Shown: positions 9,496 to 33,046 of the stretch, one piece after another | Position numbering within the stretch: position 1 is the stretch's first letter | Layout: each line of letters begins with the position of its first letter | Assembly (NCBI GenBank): GCA_003402315.1 | Contig: QFXI01000032.1 | Location: forward strand, 1 to 53,466 | Reading direction: 5' to 3' | From: Candidatus Nitrotoga sp. LAW | GTDB lineage: Bacteria; Pseudomonadota; Gammaproteobacteria; Burkholderiales; Gallionellaceae | Length of the DNA stretch: 53,466 nt | Translations under genes and position numbers: made by a program | The notes under the pieces: generated by a model | What the model saw: the letters and a program-made list of their open reading frames with translations, nothing else | The model's database searches: none | What the model was told of the DNA's origin: nothing

Positions 9496-9496
9496 C

Positions 9497-14461: not shown

Positions 14462-15542
14462 AGACCGCATCTACCAGTGGTTTCTTAAGCGAGCATCCTC
14501 CGATTCAGGCAAGGTTCGAACGAAAGGCATTATGGCGAAGCTATGTGCCGATATCGTCAACAATCCAATCGACCTTCGCAAAGCGTTAAAAAATCTTCAA
14601 GCCGATGGGCGTTTGGTATTCTCAGCAGATCCACGTGGTGAACCTATCAGCAGTTCCATCACGGTCATTCGCCCCATCGTTAAGACACTCCCCCACGAAG
14701 ACCAATGGCAAAGCGTGCTGGAAGAGGTTGGGCTGCCCGAAAAGGATATCGCCGCTCTACGCCCCCTCTACGTGGCTCTGGATGGCTTTAATGTCCGCCA
14801 CATGGAAGTCTTGCTTGCAGGATTGAGGAAGCTACGGAATGAGCAACATCTCGTCGCTGGTCAGCCCTCTTTCATCGTGAGCGCATCCTACTTGATGGGT
14901 TCGTCCAAACTGATTTCCTCGCTGGACGGGAAAAGCCTTCGGTCGTTCGGAATCGACCTCGATCAATATCCGACCAGAACTCCCTATGTGATGGTGGGTG
15001 GAGGTGGAGAAAATCCAAAGACAGTCATCCTCGTAGAAAACCCGATTGCATTTGAATCGGCAATCCGTTCAACCGCAGCAACTCAGCACGCTTTCGTTTG
15101 CACGTTCGGGTTTGGATTGAGCAACTCCGCCAGCGAATACGGAAACCAGTTGGCCGGTGCCATTGAAACAGGTGGAGCTATTCTGCTTAGGCGCACCGAA
15201 GGAGCGCATATCAGTTTTGACCAAGTCCTCCAGCATCCCGAAATACACTTTTGGGGAGATTTGGATATCGCAGGGATGCAGATTTTTGAGCGTATCGCAT
15301 CCAAAATCCCACATCTAAAGCTTTCCGCGCTATACGAACCGATGATCCAGGCGGTGGCGCTTCCAGCGGGCCGTCATCCCTATGTTGCGGCGGTGGGCAA
15401 AACGGGCCAGAAACCATTCAGGTTTACGCGAAGCGACACGGGGGCCTTGCTAGGACATTGCGACAAATGGGCTGTCGATCAGGAAATCGTTAGCGAACAC
15501 GATCTTCAAATACATGCCGGCGCTGTGTTGCAACTCAGATAG
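14448..15542 (+). CDS. jetD: Wadjet-like nuclease subunit JetD (DUF2220/Toprim-like)
   Basis: A 364-residue protein in the JetD position; JetD is the topoisomerase VI-related nuclease that cleaves plasmid DNA in Wadjet. An N-terminal winged-helix region (about 1-70, TKGIMAKLCADIVNNPIDLR) is followed by a central domain and a C-terminal Toprim-like part. The Toprim glutamate is probably in ILVENPIAFES (near 195) and the acidic pair in HFWGDLDIAGMQIFERI (near 270), which matches the WGDxDxxG pattern of DUF2220. ATG 14448 overlaps the end of jetC by 14 bases and is preferred to the upstream 14418 start, which lies inside jetC. A terminator follows at 15669. Confidence 0.8.
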   Translation: MQKLEDRIYQWFLKRASSDSGKVRTKGIMAKLCADIVNNPIDLRKALKNLQADGRLVFSADPRGEPISSSITVIRPIVKTLPHEDQWQSVLEEVGLPEKDIAALRPLYVALDGFNVRHMEVLLAGLRKLRNEQHLVAGQPSFIVSASYLMGSSKLISSLDGKSLRSFGIDLDQYPTRTPYVMVGGGGENPKTVILVENPIAFESAIRSTAATQHAFVCTFGFGLSNSASEYGNQLAGAIETGGAILLRRTEGAHISFDQVLQHPEIHFWGDLDIAGMQIFERIASKIPHLKLSALYEPMIQAVALPAGRHPYVAAVGKTGQKPFRFTRSDTGALLGHCDKWAVDQEIVSEHDLQIHAGAVLQLR

Positions 15543-15668
15543 ATCTATTGGCCGAGAGCATGAATAGTCAAAGCCGGGGACTTGTTGCTGGTCGGTGTTT
15601 GTTCAGATTGCCGTGGAGATATTGCTCGAGTAATCGAGCAGAGCTGATCGATTAACATTCTAAAAAAA

Positions 15669-15688
15669 CCAGCGCACGAATGCGCTGG
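15669..15688. terminator. Bidirectional terminator between jetD and the minus-strand operon
   Basis: CCAGCGCA (15669-15676) and TGCGCTGG (15681-15688) form a perfect 8-bp stem with a CGAA tetraloop. Plus-strand T-rich sequence (CTTCTTTTTT) follows on one side and a run of seven A on the other, so it can end both the rightward jet operon and the leftward operon. A second small hairpin (GCTCGA/TCGAGC, 15624-15639) lies upstream. Confidence 0.8.
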
Positions 15689-15714
15689 ATCTTCTTTTTT
15701 CGTTGCGCCCCACA

Positions 15715-15870
15715 TCAATGTGAAAGACGCAACGCCTCTTGTACCTTGGCTCGCAGGCTGAGCGTTATTTCCTGCCCATTTGTAGGAGCATGGTACACAT
15801 CGCAAGCCAAGCAAAAGTTCTTCTTGGCCACCTTGTCAAAAAATAAGCGCATTTCGGCAGATAACGGCAT
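15715..15870 (-). CDS. Small cysteine-containing protein (51 aa)
   Basis: A 51-codon gene starting ATG 15870, with AAGGAG eight bases upstream, a strong site that argues it is real. The sequence MPLSAEMRLFFDKVAKKN is followed by FCLACDVYHAP with a CxxC pair, then a helical tail ending EALRLSH. Function unknown. It is the last gene of the minus-strand operon and stops 27 bp before the bidirectional terminator. Confidence 0.55.
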   Translation of the reverse strand: MPLSAEMRLFFDKVAKKNFCLACDVYHAPTNGQEITLSLRAKVQEALRLSH

Positions 15871-15910
15871 GATGAATCTCCTTTGTGTTGTTGGTAAAAG
15901 AAGCCAAACA

Positions 15911-16006
15911 GGGGCTTCACTAAATCAGTGATGACTTAGTGGAGCCCCCGCCCGGTTTTCACCAGAAGGGGACTCATCGCGGCTTTATCCACGTTGTAAA
16001 ACGTGG
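15911..16006 (-). promoter_or_regulatory. Structured leader upstream of the 51-aa gene
   Basis: Two stems precede the gene on the minus strand: GGGGCTTCACTAA against TTAGTGGAGCCCC (15911-15948; fully paired apart from wobble and one internal mismatch) and CCACGTT/AACGTGG with a 4-base loop (15989-16006). The first resembles an attenuator stem. It has no run of T directly after it, so termination is uncertain. This leader is different in sequence from the repeated leaders at 17.5-24.7 kb. Confidence 0.45.
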
Positions 16007-16119
16007 CGGCCGATTATTACCTGCGTTGCGTAAATATCAGGCAAAACGAATCACTCTGATAATCGGTTTCCCGCATCACAGAGCTTTTCTCTTGCCTGAG
16101 TTCTTGCCGGTTGCGCTGC

Positions 16120-16317
16120 TTACAAAATCAGGCACAACTGACCATCTGTTTCCGGTACAGAAATTAATTCGATAATTGGCGACAAATCAATTTCTGCCGA
16201 AATGGACATTTCACGAATGCCGCCCTTCGACTTCCAGAAAAGCACCGCATGATTTTCACGTTGGCCCGATCCATAAACAACTACCGGATGACCCTGCAAT
16301 GAAAACCATTTTGGCAT
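16120..16317 (-). CDS. Small hypothetical protein (65 aa)
   Basis: ATG 16317 starts MPKWFSLQGHPVVVYGSGQR with GGGGGC as ribosome site a few bases upstream, and lies 12 bp after the stop of the preceding gene. The protein is strand-rich (HAVLFWKSKGGIREMSISAE) and ends in a hydrophobic stretch QLCLIL. No family is recognised. Its tight spacing with the upstream small gene supports an operon. Confidence 0.5.
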   Translation of the reverse strand: MPKWFSLQGHPVVVYGSGQRENHAVLFWKSKGGIREMSISAEIDLSPIIELISVPETDGQLCLIL

Positions 16318-16329
16318 CGCCCCCGAATA

Positions 16330-16575
16330 TCACAGGGCACGCCATCCGCCTGATCTACTGGCGTTATTGTCAAAAACCATGGCTTCGGCAAGCGCTAACG
16401 CGCGCGTTCCGGGGATCTCCATAAGGAAGTCAACCCATTCGGCGCACACCACCAACTTGCCACCCACAGACACAATCAGGCCGGTTGAATCTCCGCGTTG
16501 GCGAAGCCCTGCATTGATCGCCTCATGGTCGTGGTACACCAGCGTCGTGGCACCTTCATATATTTGCACCGGCAA
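16330..16575 (-). CDS. Small hypothetical protein (81 aa)
   Basis: A frame opening with TTG 16575 and running 81 codons (PVQIYEGATTLVYHDHEAIN and STGLIVSVGGKLVVCAEWVD). It has the feel of a compact alpha/beta domain, with no catalytic signature I recognise. The start has no good ribosome site; a TAA lies three codons upstream in frame, so the protein cannot be much longer. It follows ardC in the same operon and precedes the 65-residue gene by 12 bp. Confidence 0.5.
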   Translation of the reverse strand: MPVQIYEGATTLVYHDHEAINAGLRQRGDSTGLIVSVGGKLVVCAEWVDFLMEIPGTRALALAEAMVFDNNASRSGGWRAL

Positions 16576-16581
16576 CAGCTT

Positions 16582-16712
16582 TTAGGCTTTGACGGTTGGC
16601 TTGCGCACAAGTCCGTATGAGCTATGAACCGTTGCGAATGACGTTTGCAGGAATCCGCCGTGAGAAACACAGCTGACATTGCCACCGTCACAAGACCAGG
16701 AAGCTTACTCAT
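16582..16712 (-). pseudogene. Possible frameshifted small exported protein
   Basis: ATG 16712 overlaps the ardC stop and has an excellent ribosome site (GGGGAGG, 6 bases upstream). It begins MSKLPGLVTVAMSAVFLTAD, which looks like a signal peptide, but the frame then becomes unconvincing (it stays open to 16476). The adjacent frame carries GGFLQTSFATVHSSYGLVRK and stops with TAA at 16584-16582. One base change near 16650 would give a roughly 43-residue secreted peptide. This reconstruction is inference. Confidence 0.3.
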
Positions 16713-17559
16713 GACACACCTCCCCTGCTTTCGCGGATTGGGTGCCTGCCTTGAGTATCTTGTCGGCTGCTGAAAAAACCCGTGATGCGCTTTTTTTGGA
16801 AAATTCATCGGATTGCTCCTTTGAACCCAACCAACCCTGAATGTAGTCACGACTTTCTTCAAGTCCTGGCAATCCAAGTGTGGCGCAACACAAATAGGCC
16901 ACCGCTTCCGCTTCGGCCTCCTTGATGTCTTTCTGCATCAAATCGCCGTCCGCCATCTGCGCCTCTTTCGAATGCATCAGGCAGTGAGCCATTTCGTGGA
17001 AAAGCGTCTTCCACGGCATCAGCGCTACGGGCGACACGGAAAGCTGTTTTTTGTTGGGAATGGAATACCCTTGCGTGTTTCCATCCAGCAACTCAAAACG
17101 TTGTTCCGTGATTCCAAGACCGGACAAGGCTTGCACCTTATTCCATTCGGAAATCGTGACCTCGTTAGTGTAGTCCGCTCCCTCTGTTTGATCCAAAGAA
17201 AACCAGATATTTTTCAGCACAAACATCGTGCGTCCTGAATTTCTGACTTCCTTGGTGTTGTCATTGGATCCAGCACCGTTTTCAAGCTCATCACTGGATT
17301 TGGTTTTGACGGTAACAGGCATGACCAATGCAATTGCCTTCTCGCCCTTTTTCACGCACCGCCCCAATTTCTTCCATTTATTGAAGGAAGCAATCGGAGA
17401 CAGTGGCAGCCCCTTGACGGTTAATTGCAGAGCGGCGAGGATGGCATTGCCAAGGCTGTAATCGTGAAATACCGAGTACGCCTCAGAAACCTTTCCAGGG
17501 CAGGAAAGCGCATCCGAAAACAATTTGCCCCAGTTGGCGCGATTTAATTTTTCTTGCAT
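16705..17559 (-). CDS. ardC: ArdC-like antirestriction protein
   Basis: A 284-residue ArdC-family protein. ArdC proteins bind single-stranded DNA and protect incoming plasmid DNA from restriction. The ArdC_N domain (about 1-110) has the typical SLGNAILAALQL, PLSPIASFNKWKKLG and KKGEKAIALV segments. The C-terminal zincin-like domain (about 150-260) has LFHEMAHCLMH (HEXXH) and a following glutamate in EAEAEAVAYLC as likely third ligand. The start ATG 17559 lies at the end of a repeated leader that can hide the GGAG site. It belongs to the establishment block with RecET, SSB, RadC and a methyltransferase, consistent with expression early after transfer. Confidence 0.88.
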   Translation of the reverse strand: MQEKLNRANWGKLFSDALSCPGKVSEAYSVFHDYSLGNAILAALQLTVKGLPLSPIASFNKWKKLGRCVKKGEKAIALVMPVTVKTKSSDELENGAGSNDNTKEVRNSGRTMFVLKNIWFSLDQTEGADYTNEVTISEWNKVQALSGLGITEQRFELLDGNTQGYSIPNKKQLSVSPVALMPWKTLFHEMAHCLMHSKEAQMADGDLMQKDIKEAEAEAVAYLCCATLGLPGLEESRDYIQGWLGSKEQSDEFSKKSASRVFSAADKILKAGTQSAKAGEVCHE

Positions 17560-17624
17560 GGTGTTCTCCTATTCATGAAAAAAACGGAGACACCATGCCC
17601 CTTGCGGGGAAGTGTCCCCGCGTG
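17557..17624 (-). promoter_or_regulatory. Repeated attenuator-like leader, copy A (before ardC)
   Basis: Minus-strand RNA contains GCGGGGA-CACT-TCCCCGC (17621-17604), then CATGGTGTCTCCG and a T-run (to about 17578), then GGAGAACACCATG, which carries the ardC ribosome site and start codon. The middle segment GTGTCTCCG can pair back to CGGGGACAC (one G-U), giving a terminator-like stem plus T-run. Alternatively it pairs forward with GGAG-A-ACACCATG (12 bp), hiding the ribosome site and AUG. The three pairings exclude each other. Confidence 0.7.
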
Positions 17625-17668
17625 GGTCAAATTCGCCGGATTAACCGACGAATTGCTTATTACTTATT

Positions 17669-18394
17669 TCAAGATGCGTGGCAGCATTCAATCCGCTTCA
17701 CGGTCTTGGGAATCATTACAACCTCTTCGACAACCTTGCAACTCCCAATTAGCTCAATGAAATTATCCCGGATTTCGTCACACGCTTGATCGAACCGGAG
17801 AACCAGTTCAACGCGATTACGAAGTTCCAACATCGACCATTCAGAAAAATTCTCATTCTGGTCGAAGCTCTTTCCGGGATACACAGATAAGCGTTTTGGT
17901 GGCAACGTGTAATTGACGCGGCCATATTCGCCTTCAGCACCGCATGCGCCACACCTGTTGCCCATGGTGTAATCCTTGGCAATCACCGCAGCCGTTATCA
18001 CGCTTTCTGCCGAAGCGTCAGGTGTATAAACATAGCGGTAATTTCTTTGGCCGCAGGTGCGACAGTGCGACTTGTGTCCAGTCAATTCATACTCGCTGTT
18101 GTAAAGAACGAGGTAGCCACTGGATCGGCCATTGGTTCCAATCGTGTATCTCCCACTCATTTCCGAGGTGAAGTCTGCAATTGGCTGGTCGATTTCGTCC
18201 CAAAAATCCGTTTGCAGCATGTCGTATGCTGCGTTCAATTGCTCGGAAGTCAGACCCAATTTGGGCAGCTTTATGTTTTGCGCATAGCTTGTCGAGCGAT
18301 TCCAACTGTTCATTGTGTTGTACCTGCAATGACCAGTAAAAAAATCAATCATCGCTTTTTTGCTACGCTTGTCTAACGTCTTTTCAAAAAACAT
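17669..18394 (-). CDS. Hypothetical protein with two CxxC pairs
   Basis: A 241-residue protein of unknown function. Its middle holds CRTCGQRNYRYVY (near 112) and CGACGAEGEYGR (near 147), two CxxC pairs likely to bind one zinc ion. The N-terminus is basic (DKRSKKAMIDFF) and the C-terminus is helical (LELRNRVELVLRFDQACDEI). ATG 18394 follows GGAG in a copy of the repeated leader. It sits between the methyltransferase and ardC in the establishment operon, so a part in nucleic-acid processing after transfer is plausible but unproven. Confidence 0.6.
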   Translation of the reverse strand: MFFEKTLDKRSKKAMIDFFTGHCRYNTMNSWNRSTSYAQNIKLPKLGLTSEQLNAAYDMLQTDFWDEIDQPIADFTSEMSGRYTIGTNGRSSGYLVLYNSEYELTGHKSHCRTCGQRNYRYVYTPDASAESVITAAVIAKDYTMGNRCGACGAEGEYGRVNYTLPPKRLSVYPGKSFDQNENFSEWSMLELRNRVELVLRFDQACDEIRDNFIELIGSCKVVEEVVMIPKTVKRIECCHAS

Positions 18395-18462
18395 GGTGCT
18401 CTCCTTAATATATGAAAAACGGAGACACCATGTCCCTTGCGGGGAAGTGTCCCCGCGTGGGT
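18392..18462 (-). promoter_or_regulatory. Repeated attenuator-like leader, copy B
   Basis: Same architecture as copy A. GCGGGGA-CACT-TCCCCGC occupies 18456-18439, flanked by outer CCC/GGG. CATGGTGTCTCCG with five T follows, then GGAGAGCACCATG at the start of the 241-residue gene. Pairing of the middle arm with the start-site arm is preserved through a G-U pair where the base after GGAGA changed from A to G. Confidence 0.7.
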
Positions 18463-18472
18463 TGATAAAACA

Positions 18473-19354
18473 TTAAATAGCCCAAATACCTCTCTCGACA
18501 GGCTGTGCTATCAATTGAAGTGTTTGGCGAATTTTTGCTTGCCAGTTATTGTTACCAGCAAGCTGGCCTGGTGCTGCGTTGGCTACCGCTGAATAAATAT
18601 CTTCCAGCTTTGCTTTGCCGCCCAATGTTATGAGTGCGTGCCTTACAACAGCCTTCCATGTAGCCCTTAATGCCGTTGAATGTTGCTTTGCCATGCCAGC
18701 CAGATCGGACAAGATGGACACCATTACCTCTTGTGGTTTGTTCCAGAGGATGATGTATTCATGCAATATCCGCATGTGCTTCATTTTCGCGTACTGCCTC
18801 GAATCTGAAACGCAATTGTGTTGCGCCTTTATGACAACAGCCGCAAGTTCTGACTTGGGCATTCTGGCAATACAGTCTGCCTGATAACTCTTGTATTGGC
18901 CGTTGCGCCTCAAATCACCAATTAGCAGGCCATACATGCCACCCGCTTTCGTTGCTGCACGTTGATTTAGAAGTGCAACCTGGATTTTCTCCATGAAGTC
19001 TTCGTCGCTTGTGCAGCGTAAAAGGTCATCGGCGTGTGGTTCTCCCCAGACCTGACCGCTATACACGATCATGTCGTGGTATGGATGGTGGCTGAACACC
19101 ATATCCGCTTCTTTCCCTACCCTTTGCAGGATTGAGTCGCGCAGAATATTGAAACCGCTGTGAAGATCGAGACCGTAAGCCTCGATCCCCATTTCGTCAG
19201 CAACCTCAACTGATGTGCCACCGCCGACCATTGGGTCAACAAATATCCTGGGTTGATACTGCTCGAACAATGTCTTATAGACATGCCCTGAACAATTGCC
19301 GCGCCAAGAATTTTTTCCCCACTTGCCTCGATTTTCAAAGGATAGGATGCTCAT
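18473..19354 (-). CDS. DNA methyltransferase-like protein (orphan)
   Basis: A 293-residue S-adenosylmethionine-dependent DNA methyltransferase-like protein. Motif I is FVDPMVGGGTSVEVADEMG (near 38) and motif IV is DMVFSHHPYHDMIVYSG (near 85), where the usual first proline of a PPY-type motif is histidine. A long RAATKAGGMYGLLIGDLRRN segment follows near 140. It resembles orphan methyltransferases found on plasmids and ICEs and may protect incoming DNA from restriction. ATG 19354 (MSILSFENRGKWG) is chosen because it overlaps the stop of the preceding 59-codon gene (ATGA) and has GAGGAGG upstream; the frame stays open upstream but that part does not look coding. Confidence 0.75.
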   Translation of the reverse strand: MSILSFENRGKWGKNSWRGNCSGHVYKTLFEQYQPRIFVDPMVGGGTSVEVADEMGIEAYGLDLHSGFNILRDSILQRVGKEADMVFSHHPYHDMIVYSGQVWGEPHADDLLRCTSDEDFMEKIQVALLNQRAATKAGGMYGLLIGDLRRNGQYKSYQADCIARMPKSELAAVVIKAQHNCVSDSRQYAKMKHMRILHEYIILWNKPQEVMVSILSDLAGMAKQHSTALRATWKAVVRHALITLGGKAKLEDIYSAVANAAPGQLAGNNNWQAKIRQTLQLIAQPVERGIWAI

Positions 19355-19530
19355 TGCATCACCTCCTCTTTTATCCACCGATGAGAGCGACCGAGAAACT
19401 TTCCGGTGATCGGGTGGTGTTCGATGAGATCGGCACTCGCACACCATCCTTTCGGTTGGCGATAGGCGCGAATGTCACCTTTGCCGCTGAACTTGCGCCA
19501 ACGTACTGAACCGTTTTCGTAGTGATACAT
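19351..19530 (-). CDS. Small hypothetical protein (59 aa)
   Basis: A 59-codon gene, ATG 19530, placed exactly after GGAGAACACC of a repeated leader, so its start is well supported. The sequence MYHYENGSVRWRKFSGKGDI leads to a GWCASADLIEHHPITGKFLG segment and ends RWIKEEVMQ. It is strand-rich with many aromatic and basic residues. The family is not recognised. Its TGA overlaps the ATG of the methyltransferase gene, implying coupled translation, so it may be a partner or regulator of the methyltransferase. Confidence 0.6.
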   Translation of the reverse strand: MYHYENGSVRWRKFSGKGDIRAYRQPKGWCASADLIEHHPITGKFLGRSHRWIKEEVMQ

Positions 19531-19599
19531 GGTGTTCTCCTTTTTTTGAATAAAGAAACGGAGACACCATGCCCCTTGCAGGGAGGTGCCCCCGCTGAG
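19528..19599 (-). promoter_or_regulatory. Repeated attenuator-like leader, copy C
   Basis: GCGGGGGCACCTCCCTGC replaces the standard first stem and remains foldable through G-U pairs. The upstream arm CGGGGGCAC still pairs with GTGTCTCCG because its A-to-G change gives G-U. The start-site arm GGAGAACACCATG is as in copy A. These changes that keep pairing support the stem as functional. Confidence 0.65.
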
Positions 19600-19612
19600 G
19601 TTGAATAAAACT

Positions 19613-19846
19613 CTAATTTTGATACGCCAAATGTGCTTTTCGATTTACCAAGTAAATTTCCACATAGGCTTCCAGTATTACCTGCGGCGTATCGAGCCGC
19701 TTGATAATGGCTTCAACAGTATGTTTAGCCAGGTCAGCAAGATCCTGCTCTCGTTTGCAAACGGGACATTCCTTTGTGTTGTACACATCGGAATGCATAA
19801 ATTTCCAGGACGAGTTGCATTGATCGCAATACACCTTTTTTTTCAT
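19613..19846 (-). CDS. Small zinc-ribbon protein
   Basis: A 77-residue protein with CDQCNSSWKFMHSD near residue 7 and CPVCKREQDLADLAKHTVEA near 29, a CxxC-x20-CxxC zinc ribbon, followed by a C-terminal helix pair. ATG 19846 lies 19 bp after the RadC stop, so it is co-transcribed with radC. Function unknown; small zinc ribbons of this sort often bind nucleic acid or act as adaptors. Confidence 0.6.
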   Translation of the reverse strand: MKKKVYCDQCNSSWKFMHSDVYNTKECPVCKREQDLADLAKHTVEAIIKRLDTPQVILEAYVEIYLVNRKAHLAYQN

Positions 19847-19865
19847 CTTTTCAGAAATGGCACAC

Positions 19866-20465
19866 TCATATCAAACCTCGTTCGGCAAAAGACAATGCCT
19901 CTTGCTCGCCGATCACAATGTGATCGAGAACTCGAACATCTACCAATCCAAGCGCTTGCTTTAGTGCTTCAGTTAGCGAGCGGTCGGCACTGCTGGGCTC
20001 TGCCACCCCTGAAGGATGGTTGTGGCTCAGCATTACCGCTGCCGCGTTGTGTATCAAGGCGCGTTTTACTACCTCGCGTGGATACACGCTGGTTTGTGTC
20101 AGCGTCCCGTGGAATAGCTCTTCCGAAGCGATAAGACGATGCTGTGCATCAAGAAACAGCACCATAAATACTTCCTGCTGCCGTCCACCCAACACCAGCC
20201 TCAAGTAATCCTTGACCACCTGTGGTGCAGTAAAGGATACGGGGTGGTTATGGATGTCCTCTTCAAGTGCGCGCACAAACAACTCTTTGGCTGCTGAGAT
20301 GATAGGTGCGGGCACATATGGAGCTTCATTTTCGCAAACCATTTCCTGACGATTTGCACGCATTCCAAATAAAACGGAAAGTGGAACTTGTGATAGCTTT
20401 TTAGCCATCCTTTTTCCTACCAGTACGGACAACAAGTCAGGTGTGCTGCAATTTTTGATATTCAT
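19866..20465 (-). CDS. radC: RadC-family JAB-domain protein
   Basis: A 199-residue RadC/MPN protein common on mobile elements. The C-terminal JAMM metal site reads [20 protein letters not shown] (HxH...D, about residues 144-163), preceded by the family segment [25 protein letters not shown] (starting near 98). The N-terminal helix-hairpin-helix of chromosomal RadC is mostly absent, as usual for plasmid and ICE versions. The exact reaction is not established; a role in recombination or anti-defence is proposed for mobile copies. ATG 20465 is preceded by GGAGACACACA from leader copy D. Confidence 0.88.
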
Positions 20466-20528
20466 TGTGTGTCTCCTTTAAATAAAGAAAGGGACACAAA
20501 CCCTTGGCGGGGACGTGTCCCCGCTGGG
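20463..20528 (-). promoter_or_regulatory. Repeated attenuator-like leader, copy D (before radC)
   Basis: GCGGGGACACGTCCCCGC forms the first stem. The middle arm is TTTGTGTCCC followed by TTTCTTT, and the start-site arm is GGAGACACACAATG. Here the middle arm has changed from GTGTCTCC to GTGTCCC, which fits the upstream GGGACAC perfectly, while the start-site arm changed from CACCATG to CACAATG in parallel with the loss of GG in the middle arm. Confidence 0.65.
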
Positions 20529-20580
20529 TAGTTATGACGATCGCTCGTCTTCTGTTTGTTTTAATTGGTCAGCCGCCAAT
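20516..20580. repeat. 65-bp duplicated segment, copy 1 (leader edge plus gene tail)
   Basis: Nearly identical to 24706-24770 (three mismatches by eye). On the minus strand it encodes the tail AADQLKQTEDERSS followed by TAA at 20534-20532. An in-frame stop upstream means only a remnant of a coding region is left. Confidence 0.65.
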
Positions 20581-20706
20581 TTCAACTCAAGGCATAGCCG
20601 TGAGGATGAATTCTCTTTTTATGGCGCACTCATCGAATGCGTCATAAAAAGCCCCGCAAGCGAGGTAAAACCACCTTGGGCAGGCATGTCCATGCAACTG
20701 GGCTGC

Positions 20707-21774
20707 TTACCGTGCGGCAGTTTTTTTGATGATTGCCTGATAGACATTGCTATTGATAACATCCAGCCAGTCAACAGATTTCATTCCTTGCGGAATATCT
20801 GTGTCAGGTAGCTTGATGCTGGCCTTGACGCCTTCTTTCCACAGGCGTTTTACCAGTGACTTCGCCGAACTTAATCCATGACCTTCTGGATGAATCATGG
20901 AAGGCCGGTCTTTGTCAGCATAGATCACCACATCAATACCTTTTGGCGGCACGAAGTTTTCCAGCAAGTAGGCGTTTCCAGCAGCCCATACAGGCACATT
21001 GAAAGCACCCATGATGGCCAGTGCTGTTTCGATGCCCTCTGTGACTGCCAATACCTTGCTACTACCCTGTACCGCTATCCTCATCGCGCCAAACAAATTG
21101 TCGGCGCAGTGCCGCATCATTTTTTTGGGTGATTGGATATTTGCTTTCGCGCCATCGTGTGTAATGTAGGTGCGATGAACGGTCGAAGAACGACCGTTTG
21201 CATCGCACACCATAGTGACAATGGCGGGATACCTGTTGACCAGCTTTCCCTTTTCGTAATACTCAAGTGAAGGAACAAAACGGATCATCTTGCTATCAAT
21301 TTTTCGATAGTCGATCTGCCCGATTCTACGGTTCGCAAAATACAGCCTTGCTGCCCGCGCTTCGGGAGAAGTCAGAGGAATGCTGGCTTTCCACACATGA
21401 TTCAGAGAATCGCGAATGTCTTGCCTGTTATCCTCATTTTTGACACACACTTTTTTGGCTGGCAAGGGCGCGTAATGCTTCTCGCCGCTTCCCAATAGCA
21501 TGTCGTGTATGGCGCGGTGGGTAGTAAGAAAATCCCACCCGTTCGCCCACATGAGTAGCGTATATCCATCGTGATGGATGCCGCATGTGTTGCACACACC
21601 GCCGCCTGTCTCATCAAAATCCCGAAACAACCGGAATCCATCTGTCCCGCCATGCACGGGGCACGGCACATGATTCGGCGTGCGCTCTACTGCCTGACCA
21701 AGATGCGGGGCGAGCGATGTAACAATGCTTGCCCAGCGTCCTGCGGCCAACAACTTCAGTTCTTTCGCTTCCAT
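20707..21774 (-). CDS. Toprim-domain primase (P4 alpha/TraC-like) with zinc finger
   Basis: A 355-residue primase-like protein. The N-terminal zinc-binding primase domain reads CPVHGGTDGFRLFRDFDETG (near 42) and VCNTCGIHHDGYTLLMWANG (near 63). The C-terminal Toprim_3 domain has LAVTEGIETALAIMGAFNVP (near 245) and VVIYADKDR (near 285). It would prime complementary-strand synthesis on the transferred single strand. ATG 21774 is chosen because AAGGAGG lies 4-6 bases upstream; the frame is open further upstream but without a ribosome site. It belongs to the establishment operon. No helicase domain follows, so it is primase only. Confidence 0.85.
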   Translation of the reverse strand: MEAKELKLLAAGRWASIVTSLAPHLGQAVERTPNHVPCPVHGGTDGFRLFRDFDETGGGVCNTCGIHHDGYTLLMWANGWDFLTTHRAIHDMLLGSGEKHYAPLPAKKVCVKNEDNRQDIRDSLNHVWKASIPLTSPEARAARLYFANRRIGQIDYRKIDSKMIRFVPSLEYYEKGKLVNRYPAIVTMVCDANGRSSTVHRTYITHDGAKANIQSPKKMMRHCADNLFGAMRIAVQGSSKVLAVTEGIETALAIMGAFNVPVWAAGNAYLLENFVPPKGIDVVIYADKDRPSMIHPEGHGLSSAKSLVKRLWKEGVKASIKLPDTDIPQGMKSVDWLDVINSNVYQAIIKKTAAR

Positions 21775-21915
21775 GATGCCTCCTTGGTATATCCAGCACG
21801 GGACACACCAGAGCACCCAGCGGGATGTTCAGGTGAGTCCCGTGTGGGCGGGTGGTTGTAAAACCACCGGCAAAGAAGCATCCCATGGGGGATGATTCCC
21901 CCGGTGGGTGTTTGA
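21775..21915 (-). promoter_or_regulatory. Divergent structured leader before the primase (copy E)
   Basis: On the minus strand three stems occur in series: GGGGGA-ATCA-TCCCCC (near 21886-21902), GGTGGTT-TTAC-AACCACC (near 21852-21869) and CACACGGGAC/GTGTCCCGTG (21797-21847). It keeps the general GGGGA/TCCCC flavour of the repeated leaders but lacks the middle arm complementary to the start site, so it is a relative at most. Confidence 0.4.
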
Positions 21916-21918
21916 GTT

Positions 21919-22152
21919 TTAGATAGATCCTTCGTCAAATTTAGGCTTTGGGCCTGCCTTTGTGGTTTTGCCTTTGTTGGCATCAGGCGCAGCAGGTGCT
22001 GCAACGCGCGACTCACCATCCGTCTTGTTGCCACCGAGCATTTTCATCTTGAAGACAACAATTTTTGTGACGTAACGATCCTCTCCGACTTTCTGATATT
22101 TCCCAGAGGGGAACGATGTCCCTGTGAGGGTGATTAAACCCGGATAATCCAT
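21919..22152 (-). pseudogene. ssb: Truncated single-stranded DNA-binding protein
   Basis: A 77-codon frame whose part GKYQKVGEDRYVTKIVVFKM and then KMLGGNKTDGESR matches the end of the SSB OB-fold, followed by a low-complexity linker (AAPAAPDANKGKTTKAGPKP) and an acidic end FDEGSI. The first roughly 85 residues of SSB, including most DNA-contacting aromatics, are missing. The frame instead starts in MDYPGLITLTGTSFPSG, whose DNA equals part of a repeated leader (AGGGACATCGTTCCC). A palindromic MITE-like element lies just upstream. It looks like a deletion product, probably non-functional. Confidence 0.6.
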
Positions 22153-22161
22153 TAGAAAATT

Positions 22162-22258
22162 TAACCACCCTCCCCCTTTTTAAAAGGGGGATTGAGGGGG
22201 ATTTTTGTGTCCATACAACGCTCAAATCCCCCCTAGCCCCCCTTTTTCAAAAGGGTGG
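22162..22258. repeat. MITE-like palindromic repeat
   Basis: About 97 bp with long imperfect inverted arms: CCACCCTCCCCCTTTTTAAA on the left and CCCCCCTTTTTCAAAAGGGT on the right, each rich in CCCCC and GGGGG blocks around a short centre (GTGTCCATACAACGC). Elements of this type are dispersed in many proteobacterial genomes. Its position, directly upstream of the beheaded ssb, suggests it took part in that rearrangement. Confidence 0.65.
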
Positions 22259-22301
22259 AATGCGTCGTCATCGCGCGAATCGGTCTAATGGATCGTCTGG
22301 A

Positions 22302-23357
22302 TTAAACCAGGCTGCCTTGTTCAATGATCGCGTCTTTGCATTGGCGATACTCGCGCAGAGCGACCTCAAGCTCTGCATCCTCCAGATCCACTTCAGCACG
22401 GATATAAATCTCATCCAATGCCTCCACAGTGCTGGCTGATTTCAAAGCCGCGACAACCTTGTCCAGCTTTTCGAGTTTGCTCGGTTCTTTTGCCGATTGC
22501 GGTTGGTTCTCGGTTTGGGCGGGCACTTTTTCTTTGATCTCCACTGCCTCATCCACAACATCAACCGGCGCGTAACTGCCGTCGATCACATCGTTCAGAT
22601 TCAGATTTTGACCTTGCCCTGCATGCGCTTTTTCATCCATCGCCAGGGCCGTTGCCAGCTCGGGTGATTTAGGCAAGAACTTGCAGATGCGTCGAATGAC
22701 AGTTTTCAGCCCCATCGCCACAAAGTCGGTATCCCAGACGGATTCCTTCTTGTACTTTTTGGCTGCCTGGTAGCCGCGACTGCCATCACGGATGCTTTCG
22801 ACTTCTTTGCGGCCCATTGCAACAAACGTCCTGCTATCATCTTTGAGAACGCCTACCGCATAGAAGCCAACCACCTCTCCGCGTTCTTCATCAGACGCAG
22901 GAAAGCCGCCCGGTGCAGTCAGCGGTTCGTGCTCCAGGCTTCGTTCCATGCCGAGTTTTAGCGCGAACGTATCGTTCATGCGTACCTCGTGTGCATAGAT
23001 GTCCTGTACCAATCCACTCTGACGTGCCAGCTTCATCAATCCGGTGTAACCCGGAATGAGTTGGCATTGATTGCCAAACGGGACAAGGTGAGCTTCGCCC
23101 ATGAGCCCGACTTCAAGTCCAAGTTGCGAGGACTGGATAACGGCAGCAAACACACTGCGCGGGTCACATTCACCCAACTTCGGGGTCATGCGAAACGCTG
23201 TGAGCGCAATGCGTGCCATGCGATCAGGATTAATGTGCTTGGGCAGCGCGCGGGCGATTTCTCCCTTGAACTGTTCAAGCATTGCCGGGAAGCCTTGGGG
23301 TTGCTCGTTCTTGGCTGCGGCGGTACGGTTGATGTTTTTGAGTGCTTGTAATGACAT
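22302..23357 (-). CDS. recT: RecT-family single-strand annealing protein
   Basis: A 351-residue RecT/Bet-type recombinase that anneals complementary single strands and works with the RecE-like nuclease two genes upstream. The RecT core spans about 20-230: IARALPKHINPDRMARIALT, the diagnostic SVFAAVIQSSQLGLEVGLMG, then EAHLVPFGNQCQLIPGYTGL and SVWDTDFVAMGLKTVIRRIC. A charged, low-complexity C-terminal tail follows. ATG 23357 (MSLQALKNINRT) follows GGAGAAACACC of leader copy G, so it is preferred to the longer open frame beginning at 23492. It probably helps circularise or recombine the incoming element. Confidence 0.92.
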   Translation of the reverse strand: MSLQALKNINRTAAAKNEQPQGFPAMLEQFKGEIARALPKHINPDRMARIALTAFRMTPKLGECDPRSVFAAVIQSSQLGLEVGLMGEAHLVPFGNQCQLIPGYTGLMKLARQSGLVQDIYAHEVRMNDTFALKLGMERSLEHEPLTAPGGFPASDEERGEVVGFYAVGVLKDDSRTFVAMGRKEVESIRDGSRGYQAAKKYKKESVWDTDFVAMGLKTVIRRICKFLPKSPELATALAMDEKAHAGQGQNLNLNDVIDGSYAPVDVVDEAVEIKEKVPAQTENQPQSAKEPSKLEKLDKVVAALKSASTVEALDEIYIRAEVDLEDAELEVALREYRQCKDAIIEQGSLV

Positions 23358-23433
23358 GGTGTTTCTCCTTTTTGTTAAAACAAAAAAAACGGAGACACCA
23401 CGCCCCATCGGGACAATGAATGTCCCCGTGGAG
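23355..23433 (-). promoter_or_regulatory. Repeated attenuator-like leader, copy G (before recT)
   Basis: First stem CGGGGACA-TTCAT-TGTCCCG, then CGTGGTGTCTCCG followed by eight T, then GGAGAAACACCATG. The middle arm pairs back to CGGGGACA (8 bp with one G-U) directly before the T-run, or forward with ACACCATG plus GGAG at the recT start. Confidence 0.7.
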
Positions 23434-23520
23434 TTGCTTGAATCGAACCGGTTGCCCGAAACGATGCTTAATGCTGTTTTATCTTTCGGCAAGGCCAGCT
23501 GCCTTTTTCACGTCACTGCA

Positions 23521-23763
23521 TTACGCAGCAACTTGAATTTTCTTTCGCACCCTCTTCTTCTTTTCAGTCAGAACAGGAAAAGCTAATCCACGCCGAATGA
23601 ATGTGGGTGTTTCAAGACCTGCCCTGTTTGGCTCGTTTGGCATTGGTGCTGCCGGAGTCCTGGTTGCAGACTTTGCTCTCATGCGTGGTTTGATAAATAC
23701 CATCACAGCACGAATGGCCGAATAAAGCGCCCACGCCAGCATGACCAAGATAAAGATTCCCAT
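23521..23763 (-). CDS. Small single-pass membrane protein (80 aa)
   Basis: An 80-residue protein starting MGIFILVMLAWALYSAIRAV, a single N-terminal membrane helix, followed by a basic, proline-rich cytoplasmic-type tail (KPRMRAKSATRT, TEKKKRVRKKIQVAA). ATG 23763 is preceded by GGAGACACAAA from leader copy H, so the start is well supported. It lies between the RecE-like and RecT genes. Function unknown; the very basic tail could bind nucleic acid at the membrane. Confidence 0.6.
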   Translation of the reverse strand: MGIFILVMLAWALYSAIRAVMVFIKPRMRAKSATRTPAAPMPNEPNRAGLETPTFIRRGLAFPVLTEKKKRVRKKIQVAA

Positions 23764-23832
23764 TTTGTGTCTCCTCATTTGAAATAAAAAAGGGGACACA
23801 AACCCTGGTCGGGGAAGTGTCCCCGACAGGGT
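23761..23832 (-). promoter_or_regulatory. Repeated attenuator-like leader, copy H
   Basis: The first stem is extended: CCCTG-TCGGGGA-CACT-TCCCCGA-C-CAGGG. The middle arm TTTGTGTCCCC is followed by six T. GTGTCCCC (plus strand 23792-23799) pairs perfectly with GGGGACAC (plus strand 23817-23824), giving the best terminator-like form of the set. The start-site arm is GGAGACACAAAATG; its ACACAAA matches TTTGTGT of the middle arm. Both arms differ from copies A-C in a compensating way, which supports real pairing. Confidence 0.75.
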
Positions 23833-23837
23833 TGTTG

Positions 23838-24650
23838 TTACGCTTCAATATCAAAGTTTGCTGCCCAGCGCGGAAGATCAATACTTTCAATCTCGCCGCT
23901 CGGTTGATAGCCGGGAAAATGATTGTTTTTCTGGCACCATTTCAGCAACTCAAGCGCGCCGCGATACTTGGCACGCCCTACTTCGATCATTTCCTGGCTG
24001 GCGATGTAGCAGGCCGTCGAATACGGTGCATTTTTTTCCACTGCGATAAAATAAAAGTTGACTGATCTTCCAGTCACCGCTTTCATGCCGTCAGTGTAAA
24101 AAGCGGCCTGCACGTCATAGCCAAGATTGGCTATTGCTTTGGAGAAGCTGTCTTTGCTCGCACCACAGCAGCTTTTAAGGTCTGCCATACCGTACTCGCT
24201 CATCCAGTCCGGACGTATCCTGCACGGCAACCCCGTGTAGTCATCAGTCCAAAACAGGGATGACTCAGCTTCGCCATCGTCAAGCATTTTGGCTGCGCCC
24301 GCATGATTGAAAACGCTTACCCTCATTGCAGCAAGTGTGTCCATCTGCTCTGTGCTCAAAGATATCTTGCCCGCATTTTCAGCATCCCACTTTGCGGCTA
24401 TTTCCTTGTCTTCCTTGGTGCGTCGGTCGAACTTCGGCGCGAGCACATAATCTTTTGCAAAGACCTCGGGTTCAAGGATAAAGCCGTGAAATGCCGAACC
24501 AAATTCCATTGCTGGCGTTGGCTCGGCTGACCCCATTTTGTATTGCAGGTAGTGTTCGGGTGACTTGAGTAGTTGAACAATCCCGCTGTGTGATATTGCC
24601 TCACTGGCGTGATAAACCTGTATAGGCAAGTCTCTGACGATGCGTTTCAT
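23838..24650 (-). CDS. RecE-like PD-(D/E)xK exonuclease
   Basis: A 270-residue nuclease of the RecE/YqaJ/lambda-exonuclease group that would resect double-stranded ends to feed RecT. Recognisable elements: EFGSAFHGFILEPEVFAKDY (near 50), the acidic residue and core motif RIRPDWMSEYGMADLKSC (D...DxK, near 145-160), and the late motif LGYDVQAAFYTDGM (QxxxY, near 178). Length suits the exonuclease domain alone rather than full-length RecE. ATG 24650 follows GGAGACACAAA of leader copy I. It is the first gene of the minus-strand operon, and the AcaB-like gene is divergent. Confidence 0.85.
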   Translation of the reverse strand: MKRIVRDLPIQVYHASEAISHSGIVQLLKSPEHYLQYKMGSAEPTPAMEFGSAFHGFILEPEVFAKDYVLAPKFDRRTKEDKEIAAKWDAENAGKISLSTEQMDTLAAMRVSVFNHAGAAKMLDDGEAESSLFWTDDYTGLPCRIRPDWMSEYGMADLKSCCGASKDSFSKAIANLGYDVQAAFYTDGMKAVTGRSVNFYFIAVEKNAPYSTACYIASQEMIEVGRAKYRGALELLKWCQKNNHFPGYQPSGEIESIDLPRWAANFDIEA

Positions 24651-24719
24651 TTTGTGTCTCCTTTTTGGAATAAAACGGAGACACCATGACCCTTGCAGGG
24701 AACGATGTCCCCGCTGGGT
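24648..24719 (-). promoter_or_regulatory. Repeated attenuator-like leader, copy I (first gene of operon)
   Basis: GCGGGGACATCGTTCCCTGC, then CATGGTGTCTCCG with TTTT, then GGAGACACAAAATG. GTGTCTCC is perfectly complementary to GGAGACAC at the ribosome site (8 bp). Because it precedes the first gene, this copy could control the whole operon. No convincing promoter was identified between here and 24955, although the spacer is AT-rich. Confidence 0.7.
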
Positions 24720-24770
24720 GGTTATGACGATTGCTCGTCTTCTGTTTGTTTTGATTGGTCAGCCGCCAAT
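24706..24770. repeat. 65-bp duplicated segment, copy 2
   Basis: Counterpart of 20516-20580 with three mismatches by eye. The minus strand again encodes a coding tail, AADQSKQTEDEQSS, ending in TAA at 24724-24722. No gene remains upstream. It marks a duplication that copied a gene end together with the adjoining leader. Confidence 0.65.
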
Positions 24771-24955
24771 ATCAGCTCATGGCATTAAGCACATGAACAA
24801 GATGTGACAGACACTACACAGGTTTTATTCTTTCTTCCATGCTGATAATCCGCAAAATCGCCGACTTTCGATCATATTTTTTCTGAAGCCCTGTTTCACT
24901 ATTTAGTTTTGTAATTGTTCTGTTTTTTGGTTCAAGAACCACAGAGGAGAAATTC

Positions 24956-25714
24956 TTGGAAAACGGTAAAGCAGTGAAAGGCGCATCAAAAAAGAAGTCT
25001 GATGAGTTCAGCAATCCATTCCTCACCCAAGAGGTGAAGATACATTCGTCACCCGCCCAGGCTGTTTTTGAAAACGGCTACGATAAATGTGATTCGGCAC
25101 TGCATAGCTTGAGCGTTGTTCTGCCAGCAGTACTCAAAAGTGATAACGAAATAATGACCGTTAACGGCGCGGTCGATCACTTGATTAACAATGCGTTTGC
25201 AAATCTGCGCAATGAAAGCGCGCGGCTCAAGAAGATCGCCGAGGACAACGGCATTGAGATTGGCAGGGTAAATTACACGAATATCACAACTTACCAAGCA
25301 AAAATAACTTGCAACAAGTCCGGCCAATATCTGCAAATGATCCGTGAGCTCGACAGGTTGATGGAGTTGGTGCATTCAACATGGCTTGCCGGATTCATCG
25401 CCGACGATGCAAAGGGCGCATTGGAGCGGCAATGGCGCAGGAAGACGCTGGGCGTTTCGGCAGAAATTTCTGCAATCCTGGCGCGCGCGTTCAGTGCCGC
25501 GCAGAAGCTTAAGCATGATGCTCAGGCAGAATCCGGCCGAGCGGCAACGGATAGCTCCGCAGACGAGGTAATAGGAACACCTAAGAAAAAGTCGCGCAAT
25601 GCGAAAATCCAGGCACCTGATAGTGCGGTAGCTATCGCTTCCTCGCCACTTGATGATGCGGTTCTTTCGGAGCGCACCACGAATCACGATGGTGTGGCAG
25701 CAACCAATTCCTAA
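24956..25714 (+). CDS. AcaB/PFL_4669-like ICE protein (probable)
   Basis: A 252-residue protein starting at TTG 24956 with GAGGAG seven bases upstream. The helical core (DHLINNAFANLRNESARLKK, QMIRELDRLMELVHSTWLAG, then QWRRKTLGVSAEISAILARA) resembles the integrating-conjugative-element family TIGR03761/DUF1845, which includes the AcaB regulator. The C-terminal 60 residues are low complexity and basic (TPKKKSRNAKIQA). If the assignment is right it may regulate or organise transfer functions. It is divergent from the RecE-like gene, and what followed it has been disrupted by a decayed IS110. Confidence 0.5.
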   Translation: MENGKAVKGASKKKSDEFSNPFLTQEVKIHSSPAQAVFENGYDKCDSALHSLSVVLPAVLKSDNEIMTVNGAVDHLINNAFANLRNESARLKKIAEDNGIEIGRVNYTNITTYQAKITCNKSGQYLQMIRELDRLMELVHSTWLAGFIADDAKGALERQWRRKTLGVSAEISAILARAFSAAQKLKHDAQAESGRAATDSSADEVIGTPKKKSRNAKIQAPDSAVAIASSPLDDAVLSERTTNHDGVAATNS

Positions 25715-30100: not shown

Positions 30101-30184
30101 AAGTTCTTCACCAAAATCACTTCCGACCAAGTGAAATACGATGTGGTAGACAGCTATGGCAAGCTGATGGAATTGGTGAAGTAA
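27158..30184 (+). CDS. res: Type III restriction enzyme Res subunit
   Basis: A 1008-residue Res-type helicase-nuclease. The superfamily 2 helicase motifs are clear: [18 protein letters not shown] (motif I, near 105), [13 protein letters not shown] (motif II, near 225), LRYSATHKT (motif III, near 250), and late motifs [20 protein letters not shown] and [14 protein letters not shown] (near 530-565). The C-terminal PD-(D/E)xK nuclease reads [16 protein letters not shown] then [12 protein letters not shown] (near 935-965). Length is normal and the frame intact. The Mod methyltransferase normally required for specificity and protection is not in the window, so this Res may be inactive, silenced or dependent on a distant partner. 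Confidence 0.9.
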
Positions 30185-30249
30185 ATCACATCCGTGTCTG
30201 TAAATGGAAGGCTAAACACCTCGGTGCATCATATTTACAAGCACCAATG

Positions 30250-30279
30250 CTGGATGCCAAACTTTCAAATGGCATCCAG
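30250..30279. terminator. Perfect 10-bp hairpin after res
   Basis: CTGGATGCCA (30250-30259) and TGGCATCCAG (30270-30279) with a 10-base loop, 66 bp after the res stop. There is no T-run, so it is a weak terminator candidate or an mRNA-stabilising stem. Confidence 0.4.
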
Positions 30280-30335
30280 GCTGGAGTAAAATTCGACGCT
30301 TCACACAAAATCACATCGCTAACCAATCCTCGCCA

Positions 30336-30620
30336 ATGAACCGCTCCGAACTCATAGAACGCATCGCCAACCGATTCCCACAACTTCAACTCAAGGATGC
30401 CGAGTTTGGGGTGAGGGTTATTCATGAGGTCTTGTCCAATGCGCTATCAAAGGGAGACAGAATAGAAATTCGTGGCTTCGGGAGTTTCGCTCTCAATTAC
30501 AGGCCGCCGCGCACGGGGCGCAATCCGAAGATGGGCAGCAAGGTGTCAGTGCCAGCCAAGTATGTGCCGCACTTCAAAGCCGGTAAGGAGCTTAGGGAGC
30601 GGGTAGCTAAAAGCAAGTGA
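30336..30620 (+). CDS. IHF-beta-like DNA-bending protein
   Basis: A 94-residue IHF beta-type protein: start [20 protein letters not shown], core [20 protein letters not shown] then [20 protein letters not shown] with the intercalating proline in RNPKMG, and the usual end [12 protein letters not shown]. Length equals chromosomal IHF-beta. It is one of two IHF-beta-type genes in the window and differs from the one at 52.4 kb by many substitutions. No alpha-subunit gene is present; the product might act alone or pair with the host IHF-alpha. It follows res and is convergent with the capP gene. Confidence 0.92.
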
Positions 30621-30701
30621 CCCATGGGAACAGGGCTAATCGTTATTGGACTAATCTGCCTGAGCTTGGCTCTTCCGACTCTGCTGATAATCGCTATTCT
30701 T

Positions 30702-31553: not shown

Positions 31554-31876
31554 TACGAAGGTTTCTTGAAGGCACTTAGTATCTTGCGAAGATGATCTTT
31601 TGCTACAGGATCAAGCTTCTGGTAACCGCGAAAAAATGCTTCATCCAAATGTCGCTCTTCGGGAGCGCGCACATCCTCCTCGATGAAGTATGCAGCGGAT
31701 ACACCCAGTACATCGGCTAAGGCGGTAAGTTTTTCCGCAGAAGGCCGTTGGGATTCTCGATTCTCAAGTTCCCATAAATAACTCTTGCTTAGTCCTGCAA
31801 GGTCGGCCAGTTTTTCGAGCGTCAATTGACGCTCCTTACGAAGTTCGCGCAATTTTTCGCCAAGACGGGTTGCCAT
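31553..31876 (-). CDS. capH: CapH-like XRE helix-turn-helix repressor
   Basis: A 107-residue regulator. The helix-turn-helix domain covers about residues 1-65 (LRELRKERQLTLEKLADLAG then LSKSYLWELENRESQRPSAE), followed by a helical segment FFRGYQKLDPVAKDHLRKIL that could mediate dimerisation. ATG 31876 (MATRLGEKL) is chosen over 31894 because AAGGAAA lies about eight bases upstream. Its stop overlaps the capP start. It probably represses both itself and the divergent CBASS promoter by binding the repeats at 31919-31997. Confidence 0.8.
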   Translation of the reverse strand: MATRLGEKLRELRKERQLTLEKLADLAGLSKSYLWELENRESQRPSAEKLTALADVLGVSAAYFIEEDVRAPEERHLDEAFFRGYQKLDPVAKDHLRKILSAFKKPS

Positions 31877-31918
31877 AGTCGCGTTTCCTTTCAATCAATG
31901 CACAATTGCAATATTACC

Positions 31919-31997
31919 ACGATTCCGAACTTTTTAATTGACAATCGAAAAAACAGGCGTATTATGCCAACTTGTTCACGATCCCGAACTTTTAATT
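31919..31997 (+). promoter_or_regulatory. CBASS promoter bracketed by two direct repeats
   Basis: A good sigma70 promoter TTGACA (31938-31943) - 16 bp - TATTAT (31960-31965) points at the CD-NTase gene. ACGATTCCGAAC followed by TTTTTAATT (31919-31939) overlaps its -35 box. The near-identical ACGATCCCGAACTTTTAATT (31978-31997) lies just past the expected start of transcription. A repressor on both copies would shut the promoter. Copy 1 also covers the probable leftward capH promoter region. Confidence 0.7.
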
Positions 31998-32075
31998 AGG
32001 GTACGTTAATATATCGACTGGTTCGATTTGGATAACTAAGCCCACGAATGCAACTGATATGAAAGGATCTTTTAG

Positions 32076-33041: not shown

Positions 33042-33046
33042 ATATT

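Follow-up and report, generated by a model that had tools for sequence, protein, structure and literature searches.

How do conjugative elements switch on the genes that serve them at entry into a new cell, such as ssb, recT/bet, exonuclease, ardC, radC, and methylase genes? To our knowledge, this question is largely open outside the single-strand promoters of the F/IncI type. It is raised anew by an operon of Candidatus Nitrotoga sp. LAW, a member of a nitrite-oxidising genus. The window analysed here is the whole 53,466-nucleotide contig QFXI01000032.1, one of 33 contigs of the 2.8-Mb genome, and it contains an integrating conjugative element (ICE). A minus-strand operon of this element encodes a DUF3799/RecE-like nuclease, an 80-residue protein, RecT, a Toprim primase-like protein, RadC, small proteins, ArdC, and two further proteins without a Pfam match (241 and 297 residues). 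Seven of its gene starts are preceded by a short leader, which a preliminary description of this DNA, made from the sequence alone, had proposed to be a three-way switching RNA. The leaders are real in all seven places, and homologues in other elements keep three mutually exclusive pairings by compensating changes. In our reading, to which we assign a probability of roughly 0.7, the leader is a cis-acting RNA switch that closes and opens the ribosome site of each gene, the ground state being closed and the open one programmed.

Three mutually exclusive pairings in each leader

All seven minus-strand gaps contain the described parts (Table 1): arms 1, 2, and 3, followed by arm 4 with the ribosome site and the start codon. 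The pairings 1:2, 1:3, and 3:4 exclude one another. The fold of the full leader shows an outer CCC/GGG stem enclosing GCGGGGA...TCCCCGC. Next comes a hairpin, for example GGTGTCTCC with GGAGAACACC, that includes the ribosome site; several copies have the AUG in it as well. Stem 1 of leader E lies in a shifted register (GGGACA/TGTCCC). When the leaders are cut after the T-run that follows arm 3, six of the seven form the 1:3 hairpin, GCGGGGACAC with GTGTCTCCG or similar; the exception is leader F, whose truncated fold keeps stem 1 (1:2). By these folds, arm 1 imitates arm 4. In every case the full leader is more stable than 200 of 200 dinucleotide shuffles of its own sequence, with z scores from -3.8 to -7.2.

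Covariation among the seven copies, which the preliminary description had found hard to explain by simple duplication, proved to be weak. The 1:3 arms are paired in 56 of 56 cells, but none of the eight pairs changes on both sides. The variation is one-sided only (G-C/G-U, A-U/G-U, and C-G/U-G), and 500 of 500 shuffles do as well. We rejected the seven copies alone as proof of the 1:3 pairing and, because they never change it on both sides, examined homologues.

Homologous leaders in other conjugative elements

A covariance model built from the seven window leaders (R1) recovered all seven in the Nitrotoga genome with E values of 1.5e-10 or better, 150 of the 453 first-look candidates having been scored. 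Three more matches (E 0.16 to 0.96) are the same sites on the opposite strand. Among a set of relatives, R1 found matches at E <= 0.01 in 10 of 61 genomes, with 1 to 17 matches per genome. We built a second model (R2) from 102 matches, excluding very short ones and many that were orthologous to matches chosen before. With few candidates scored per genome, R2 detected leaders at E <= 0.001 in 31 of 369 sampled genomes of the class, 19 of them with two or more matches, and in 37 of 300 genomes of the order; the Nitrotoga genome is included in all three counts.

The one IncC plasmid examined, pKPC-8e09, belongs to a multidrug-resistance group and gave 27 R2 matches at E <= 1, of which 23 lie on the coding strand. 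All 27 fall inside a 27-kb cluster (95.1-122.2 kb of 178.6 kb) encoding ssb, bet, an exonuclease, a cytosine methyltransferase, and many small genes. BLAST searches with leader A matched 748 plasmid records (726 predicted conjugative), mostly enterobacterial and mostly over about half of the query among the matches listed. With a 181-base piece of IncC that contains one leader and the module upstream of it, 861 records were matched, and in 723 the match covers 80% or more of the query. Among phage records, leader A gave only one 37-base match, to a Salmonella record filed there, and one 20-base match.

The expectation that the controlled genes include those of establishment and recombination type was borne out by Pfam analysis of the downstream proteins, in the window as well as in homologues. 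The 76 proteins behind a first set of 102 leaders include SSB (8), RecT (8), DUF3799 (7), ArdC (6), RadC (5), PRTRC_E (4), SNF2-type helicases (3), and ParB (2). Judged by these matches, the leader design is common to very different conjugative elements.

As for the number of copies in the window, the seven described are all present, but further traces exist (Table 1). A leader-like sequence before the Toprim/primase-like gene was seen by eye, and the models did not find it in the own-genome and class searches. A remnant with arms 1 and 2 is fused to a truncated ssb (21919-22132, minus strand), the rest of the leader and the gene start being missing. This ssb remnant (59 residues) shares 83% identity with the C-terminal part (residue 84 onwards) of an intact ssb at locus L055, which itself stands behind a leader.

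Compensating changes keep the three pairings

The first set was reduced to 67 non-redundant leaders (under 80% alike, one truncated leader dropped), in which arms matched within a leader were compared with mismatched arms. The z scores were -11.5 for 1:2, -10.6 for 1:3, and -9.5 for 3:4, against 0.0 for 1:4, 0.1 for 2:4, and +2.6 for 2:3 (matched arms slightly worse) in the control pairs. The pairings 1:2 and 3:4 are part of the models that picked and aligned the leaders, and 1:3 is not; therefore, the alignment cannot have produced the 1:3 signal.

We also shuffled arms only among the paralogous leaders of the same element, using elements with four or more leaders in an alignment-free test. 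Leaders without a start codon or a 25-codon frame were dropped, which kept 101 of 102 leaders in the first set and 138 of 150 aligned leaders (from 188 matches) in a second, largely separate set, and the duplicate locus L104 was removed. Removal of leaders over 75% alike left 80 and 130, respectively, and the two sets overlap by at least one leader (L062, within L103). The 1:3 pairing scored z -6.4 in the first set (63 leaders, 8 elements) and z -10.5 in the second (89 leaders, 12 elements), with none of 2000 shuffles as good in either; the corresponding values for 3:4 were -7.9 and -9.6.

The IncC plasmid alone, represented by 30 gaps of 55 bases or more in the cluster, gave z -8.6 for 1:3 (-15.5 kcal/mol matched versus -10.9 kcal/mol mismatched) and z -6.4 for 3:4, even though not all of these gaps are leaders, which works against the signal. 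Eleven control starts with shorter gaps gave z -1.6 for 1:3 (305 of 5000 shuffles as good) and z +0.8 for 3:4; three other starts of the stretch belong to neither group.

Columns were counted in an alignment (A5) fitted to the 1:2 and 3:4 structure, in which 14 of the 18 pairs of that model, the outer stem included, change on both sides, with 146 two-sided cells versus 48.9 in shuffles. For 1:3, six of eight pairs change on both sides (12 cells versus 4.5). On this comparative evidence, the homologues establish the 1:3 pairing, unlike the seven copies, and the three pairings coexist. The folds and the compensating changes support the proposal of a three-way switching leader repeated before genes of the ICE.

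The coding strand folds and is predicted to switch

Isolated mismatches inside helices, scored on Watson-Crick pairs only, were used to distinguish the strands. G.U exceeds A.C by 67:19 in 1:2, by 72:15 in 1:3 outside the anti-ribosome-site part, and by 45:21 in 3:4 outside the ribosome site, which indicates folding of the coding strand, as expected of RNA. The ribosome-site part of 3:4 differs, with more A.C than G.U (49 cells versus 13), because arm 3 must serve both GGGG and GGAG.

Switching was modelled with 204 non-redundant leaders pooled from 239, along with their dinucleotide shuffles and chimeras whose first 34 bases come from another leader. A switch was predicted where a cut after arm 3 gives 1:3 and the full leader has its ribosome site closed. 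The ribosome region is closed in 181 full leaders (89%; shuffles 36%, chimeras 88%), which had been picked by models that include 3:4. Cutting after arm 3 leaves this arm paired upstream in 186 of 204 (shuffles 68%, chimeras 66%). Both hold for 167 leaders (82%), compared with 24% of shuffles and 58% of chimeras, and for 132 (65%; 5% and 19%) when arm 1 must also re-pair locally in the full form. With the ribosome site forced open, arm 3 stays on upstream pairs in 178 of 204; the median opening cost is 10.2 kcal/mol, as against 11.1 for chimeras and 8.6 for the less structured shuffles.

A probable translational switch and its alternatives

Comparison and folding support both the switching and a translational role, so that the interpretation given in the preliminary description is partly supported. 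Each leader would lie in the 5' untranslated region of one gene in a polycistronic establishment and recombination operon. In the finished RNA, 1:2 and 3:4 would be paired, closing the ribosome site, together with the AUG in several copies, and keeping the gene silent. During RNA synthesis, or once arm 3 leaves arm 4, arm 3 would pair with arm 1 and leave the ribosome site free, a presumably kinetic opening that may respond to a trigger. Translation of the long shared transcript would thus be confined to suitable circumstances, of which the first period after entry into a new cell is the most plausible.

Several observations weigh against this switch. The frequent A.C mismatches at the ribosome site make the 3:4 closure imperfect, arm 1 lowers the opening cost by only about 1 kcal/mol, and 36 of the 204 full-length minimum-energy folds have four or more arm-3 pairs upstream. 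The rates at which chimeras switch and at which arm 3 of the shuffles pairs upstream imply that predicted switching derives partly from composition and the shared G-rich arm 1. Moreover, T-runs are frequent in AT-rich elements, where the leaders may accordingly have a role in termination.

The leaders could instead be transcription attenuators, the 1:3 hairpin and the T-run forming an intrinsic terminator whose read-through depends on whether 1:2 or 1:3 is chosen, possibly under the control of an antiterminator. This would suit the window, where all seven leaders have the T-run and six fold as 1:3 when cut behind it. Terminator-like sites, counted on both strands, number 19 in 20300-25100 (5.3 expected) and 9 in 16600-20300 (4.6 expected); they touch leaders A, B, C, D, and E via a hairpin smaller than 1:3, and internal terminator-like hairpins precede many upstream modules. 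As a general rule, however, the terminator suggested in the preliminary description does not hold. A T-run (at least 6 T within a stretch of 8 bases between -42 and -14) occurs in 146 of 239 leaders, and it is missing from most leaders of the IncC plasmid (present in 2 of 18), which nevertheless keeps 1:3, and from those of several GC-rich elements; the other counts are 1 of 7 at L106, 1 of 8 at L107, and 0 of 5 at L111. In the half of the IncC cluster that was scanned, 22 terminator-like sites were counted on the two strands together (14.8 expected, standard deviation 3.8). On the T-run counts we rejected a universal terminator. Since 1:3 persists in leaders that lack the T-run, a translational role should be the one shared by all leaders, and translation control is favoured over termination. 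We thus regard attenuation as an unlikely account of the leaders in general; it may have been added in AT-rich elements, where, as in the window, the 1:3 hairpin with its T-run could double as a weak terminator.

Considerably less probable is the other proposal of the preliminary description, that the stems act as single-stranded DNA during entry, like promoters; we count primer- and recombination-site-like structures with it. Conjugative elements do enter as single strands, establishment kinds are among the genes, and the accessible part of one report describes structured sequences likewise upstream of the establishment genes of pLS20 (PMC8708921). The proposal is weakened by the identity of arm 4 with the ribosome site and start codon, and by the excess of G.U over A.C in the coding-strand structure, although DNA equal to the coding strand could tolerate G.T too. 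Also against it, promoter-like sites are not in excess, either in the window operon (4 versus 4.3 expected and 3 versus 3.8, one match overlapping leader B) or in the scanned IncC half (3 versus 10.0). Finally, ordinary intergenic hairpins multiplied by recent duplication and devoid of a switching role can hardly account for the data: leaders A and B are 87% alike and two IncC leaders (before the genes at L101 12210 and 17045) hardly differ, but partners are kept in leaders of unrelated sequence within one element, as the within-element shuffles already indicate, and leaders keep their place relative to the start codon of the gene behind them.

Relation to known RNA structures

The preliminary description knew of no family with this layout, and none emerged from Rfam in the window or in the IncC stretch scanned. 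Across the whole window, 4227 Rfam families gave only a tRNA at the gathering threshold; in 16400-25600 there were only chance-like matches at E up to 10, and bases 1-19500 of the IncC stretch (L100) had no gathering-level match. No description of these leaders was found in the literature searched, in which subscription papers and supplements were mostly outside reach. We consider the leader a real cis-regulatory RNA design that is undescribed within the searchable literature, which is not proof of absence.

The translational switch recalls the ribosome-site-hiding hairpins that late genes of phage T4 reportedly carry, as it would likewise close the ribosome site in long read-through transcripts. 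The leaders differ in the third arm, whose mimicry of the ribosome site would provide a built-in open state, and in their number, as twenty or more genes of one element carry one.

The radC RNA (RF01754), which we take to be a 5' leader of radC, antirestriction, and methylase-type genes, has a gene context that is present in the window, with radC behind leader D and ardC behind leader A. The window was not matched even at E up to 10, nor the Nitrotoga genome over the cut-off of the model; the motif was found in 1 of 274 genomes of the class and in 1 of 7 of that genome's family. This motif, described by Weinberg et al. (2010; PMC2864571), is found, like the leaders, upstream of radC and STY4534-type genes in plasmids and conjugative elements, and differs from them in its own sequence and structure of 149 positions and in lying upstream of the leader. 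The accessible part of the same source places the STAXI motif (RF01728) near antirestriction, ssb, and integrase genes, as the leaders are, but describes tandem pseudoknots (PMC2864571), and the motif has no match in the window. Membership of the leaders in either family was rejected, as no covariance-model match was obtained.

EGeRS1 of the pLS20 family comprises structured sequences directly upstream of the ribosome sites of ardC and other establishment genes, which are repeated in one plasmid and whose mechanism is open, as in the leaders (PMC8708921). The portion of that report available to us gives lengths of about 325-600 bases, Bacillus plasmids, and highly similar copies as differences, and describes no three-arm design (PMC8708921). 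The Frpo/ssi single-strand promoters serve leading-region genes and have, in the text accessible to us, promoter boxes in a long hairpin (PMC11541004), whereas the arms of the leaders comprise roughly 8-12 pairs and end at the start codon.

Modules upstream of the leader

A conserved 64-base module lies directly upstream of leaders D and G, of seven IncC sites (L101), and of sites in other elements. The copy before leader G consists of the stem ATTGG/CCAAT with the loop CGGCTGA, followed by AAAACAAACAG; in general, a 5-bp stem of variable sequence encloses a loop with GCTG and is followed by AAACAAACAG. Two-sided changes occur at each of the five stem pairs, and 94.6% of cells are paired. Compared with the leader, which has little conserved unpaired sequence, the module holds more. 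In a possible pseudoknot GCUG:CAGC, three pairs look invariant and the fourth is missing in 11 of 26 copies, but this invariance stems in part from how the copies were collected, with a pattern that required GCTG and almost the whole of AAACAAACAG. With a covariance model of the module (R3), 14 further matches escaping the pattern were obtained, of which 13 keep GCTG and a CAG (one shifted). At L050 (13053-13116), the loop reads GCCG and CGG replaces CAG, a double change keeping the pairing; this is one event only, but it points towards a pseudoknot, possibly of the H type.

The module is restricted to some elements. In the class sample of 369 genomes, searched with stricter filters and few candidates scored per genome, R3 matched only the Nitrotoga genome, compared with 31 genomes with leaders in such a sample, while it matched 11 of 12 records chosen for having leaders (E <= 0.1); the exception is a radC RNA genome (G322). 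No Rfam match to the module was found in the stretches scanned. First-in-operon copies can have TTGACA-17-TATTTT-like promoters just upstream (scanned at L114, by eye elsewhere). Many internal copies follow, as seen by eye, a terminator-like hairpin whose T-run starts a second hairpin. In the window, such a T-run forms the 5' arm of the longer second hairpin (Table 1), and similar hairpins occur in L051, L101, and L105. The double hairpin could serve for processing by RNase III or as a bidirectional terminator; any part of the module region in antitermination or processing is a guess.

In other elements, the radC RNA takes the place of the module. The leader was found by R1 or R2 between the radC RNA and the start codon at six (L062 and L118-L122) of ten radC RNA loci, all over the Rfam cut-off, four of them from one genome and six from nine plasmid records. 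L061, L064, and L123 have a similar layout by eye only, and L063 not clearly. The adjoining three-arm leader thus gives this orphan motif a possible expression platform.

The upstream modules, pseudoknot-like here and radC RNA elsewhere, are candidate sensing parts. We consider it possible, without favouring it, that conjugative elements carry an undescribed modular RNA regulon in which an interchangeable upstream sensor and a common three-way platform would switch on dozens of establishment genes together at entry, also in IncC. A translational switch before most genes of the 27-kb IncC cluster would by itself offer a handle on the establishment of important multidrug-resistance plasmids, place the radC RNA in a context, and make an unusually rich natural set of switching RNAs available for folding studies.

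The element and its other genes

The window ICE also encodes TraN and TrbC, and its further parts are listed in Table 1. The nearest relatives of the operon nuclease are in Candidatus Nitrotoga (96% identity).

Table 1. Positions of the leaders, upstream modules, and parts of the element in the window
Feature	Position	Strand	Context	Remark
Leader A	17557..17627	minus	before ardC (16705-17559)	R1 89.5 bits
Leader B	18392..18462	minus	before 241-residue protein without Pfam match (17669-18394)	
Leader C	19528..19602	minus	before small open reading frame (19351-19530), then 297-residue protein without Pfam match (18473-19366)	
Leader D	20463..20530	minus	before radC (19866-20465)	TTTGTGTCCC subtype
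Leader E	23355..23434	minus	before recT (22302-23357)	
Leader F	23761..23833	minus	before 80-residue protein (23521-23763)	TTTGTGTCCC subtype
Leader G	24648..24720	minus	before DUF3799/RecE-like exonuclease (23838-24650)	
Leader-like sequence	about 21774-21850	minus	before Toprim/primase-like gene (20707-21774)	by eye
Leader remnant, arms 1 and 2	22101-22132	minus	before truncated ssb (21919-22098)	
Module before leader G	24739-24802	minus		R3 E 6.8e-12
Module before leader D	20549-20612	minus		R3 E 4.8e-11
Terminator-like hairpin	20652-20665	minus	upstream of leader D module	second hairpin about 20615-20651 (by eye)
Operon with leaders	24650-16705	minus		
tRNA-Leu	3684-3768		ICE part	
Integrase	3727-4878		ICE part	
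MobH relaxase	42300-44402		ICE part	

Between recT and the ssb remnant, an inverted repeat rich in G/C runs (22173-22255) has 32-nucleotide arms that are 78% complementary. A four-gene operon on the plus strand (7359-15542) encodes proteins of 452, 261, 1666, and 374 residues; the last has a weak JetD model match and is perhaps Wadjet-like, and the other three have no PADLOC match. A defence island of the element (27158-36098) comprises a type III restriction enzyme, an HU-like protein, an IrrE/M78 peptidase with a helix-turn-helix regulator, and a CBASS-like cyclase with a SAVED nuclease effector. On the plus strand, 48553-52410 encodes a TacA-like antitoxin with a GNAT protein, an SRAP protein, and a UmuDC-like pair of an S24 peptidase and a Y-family polymerase.

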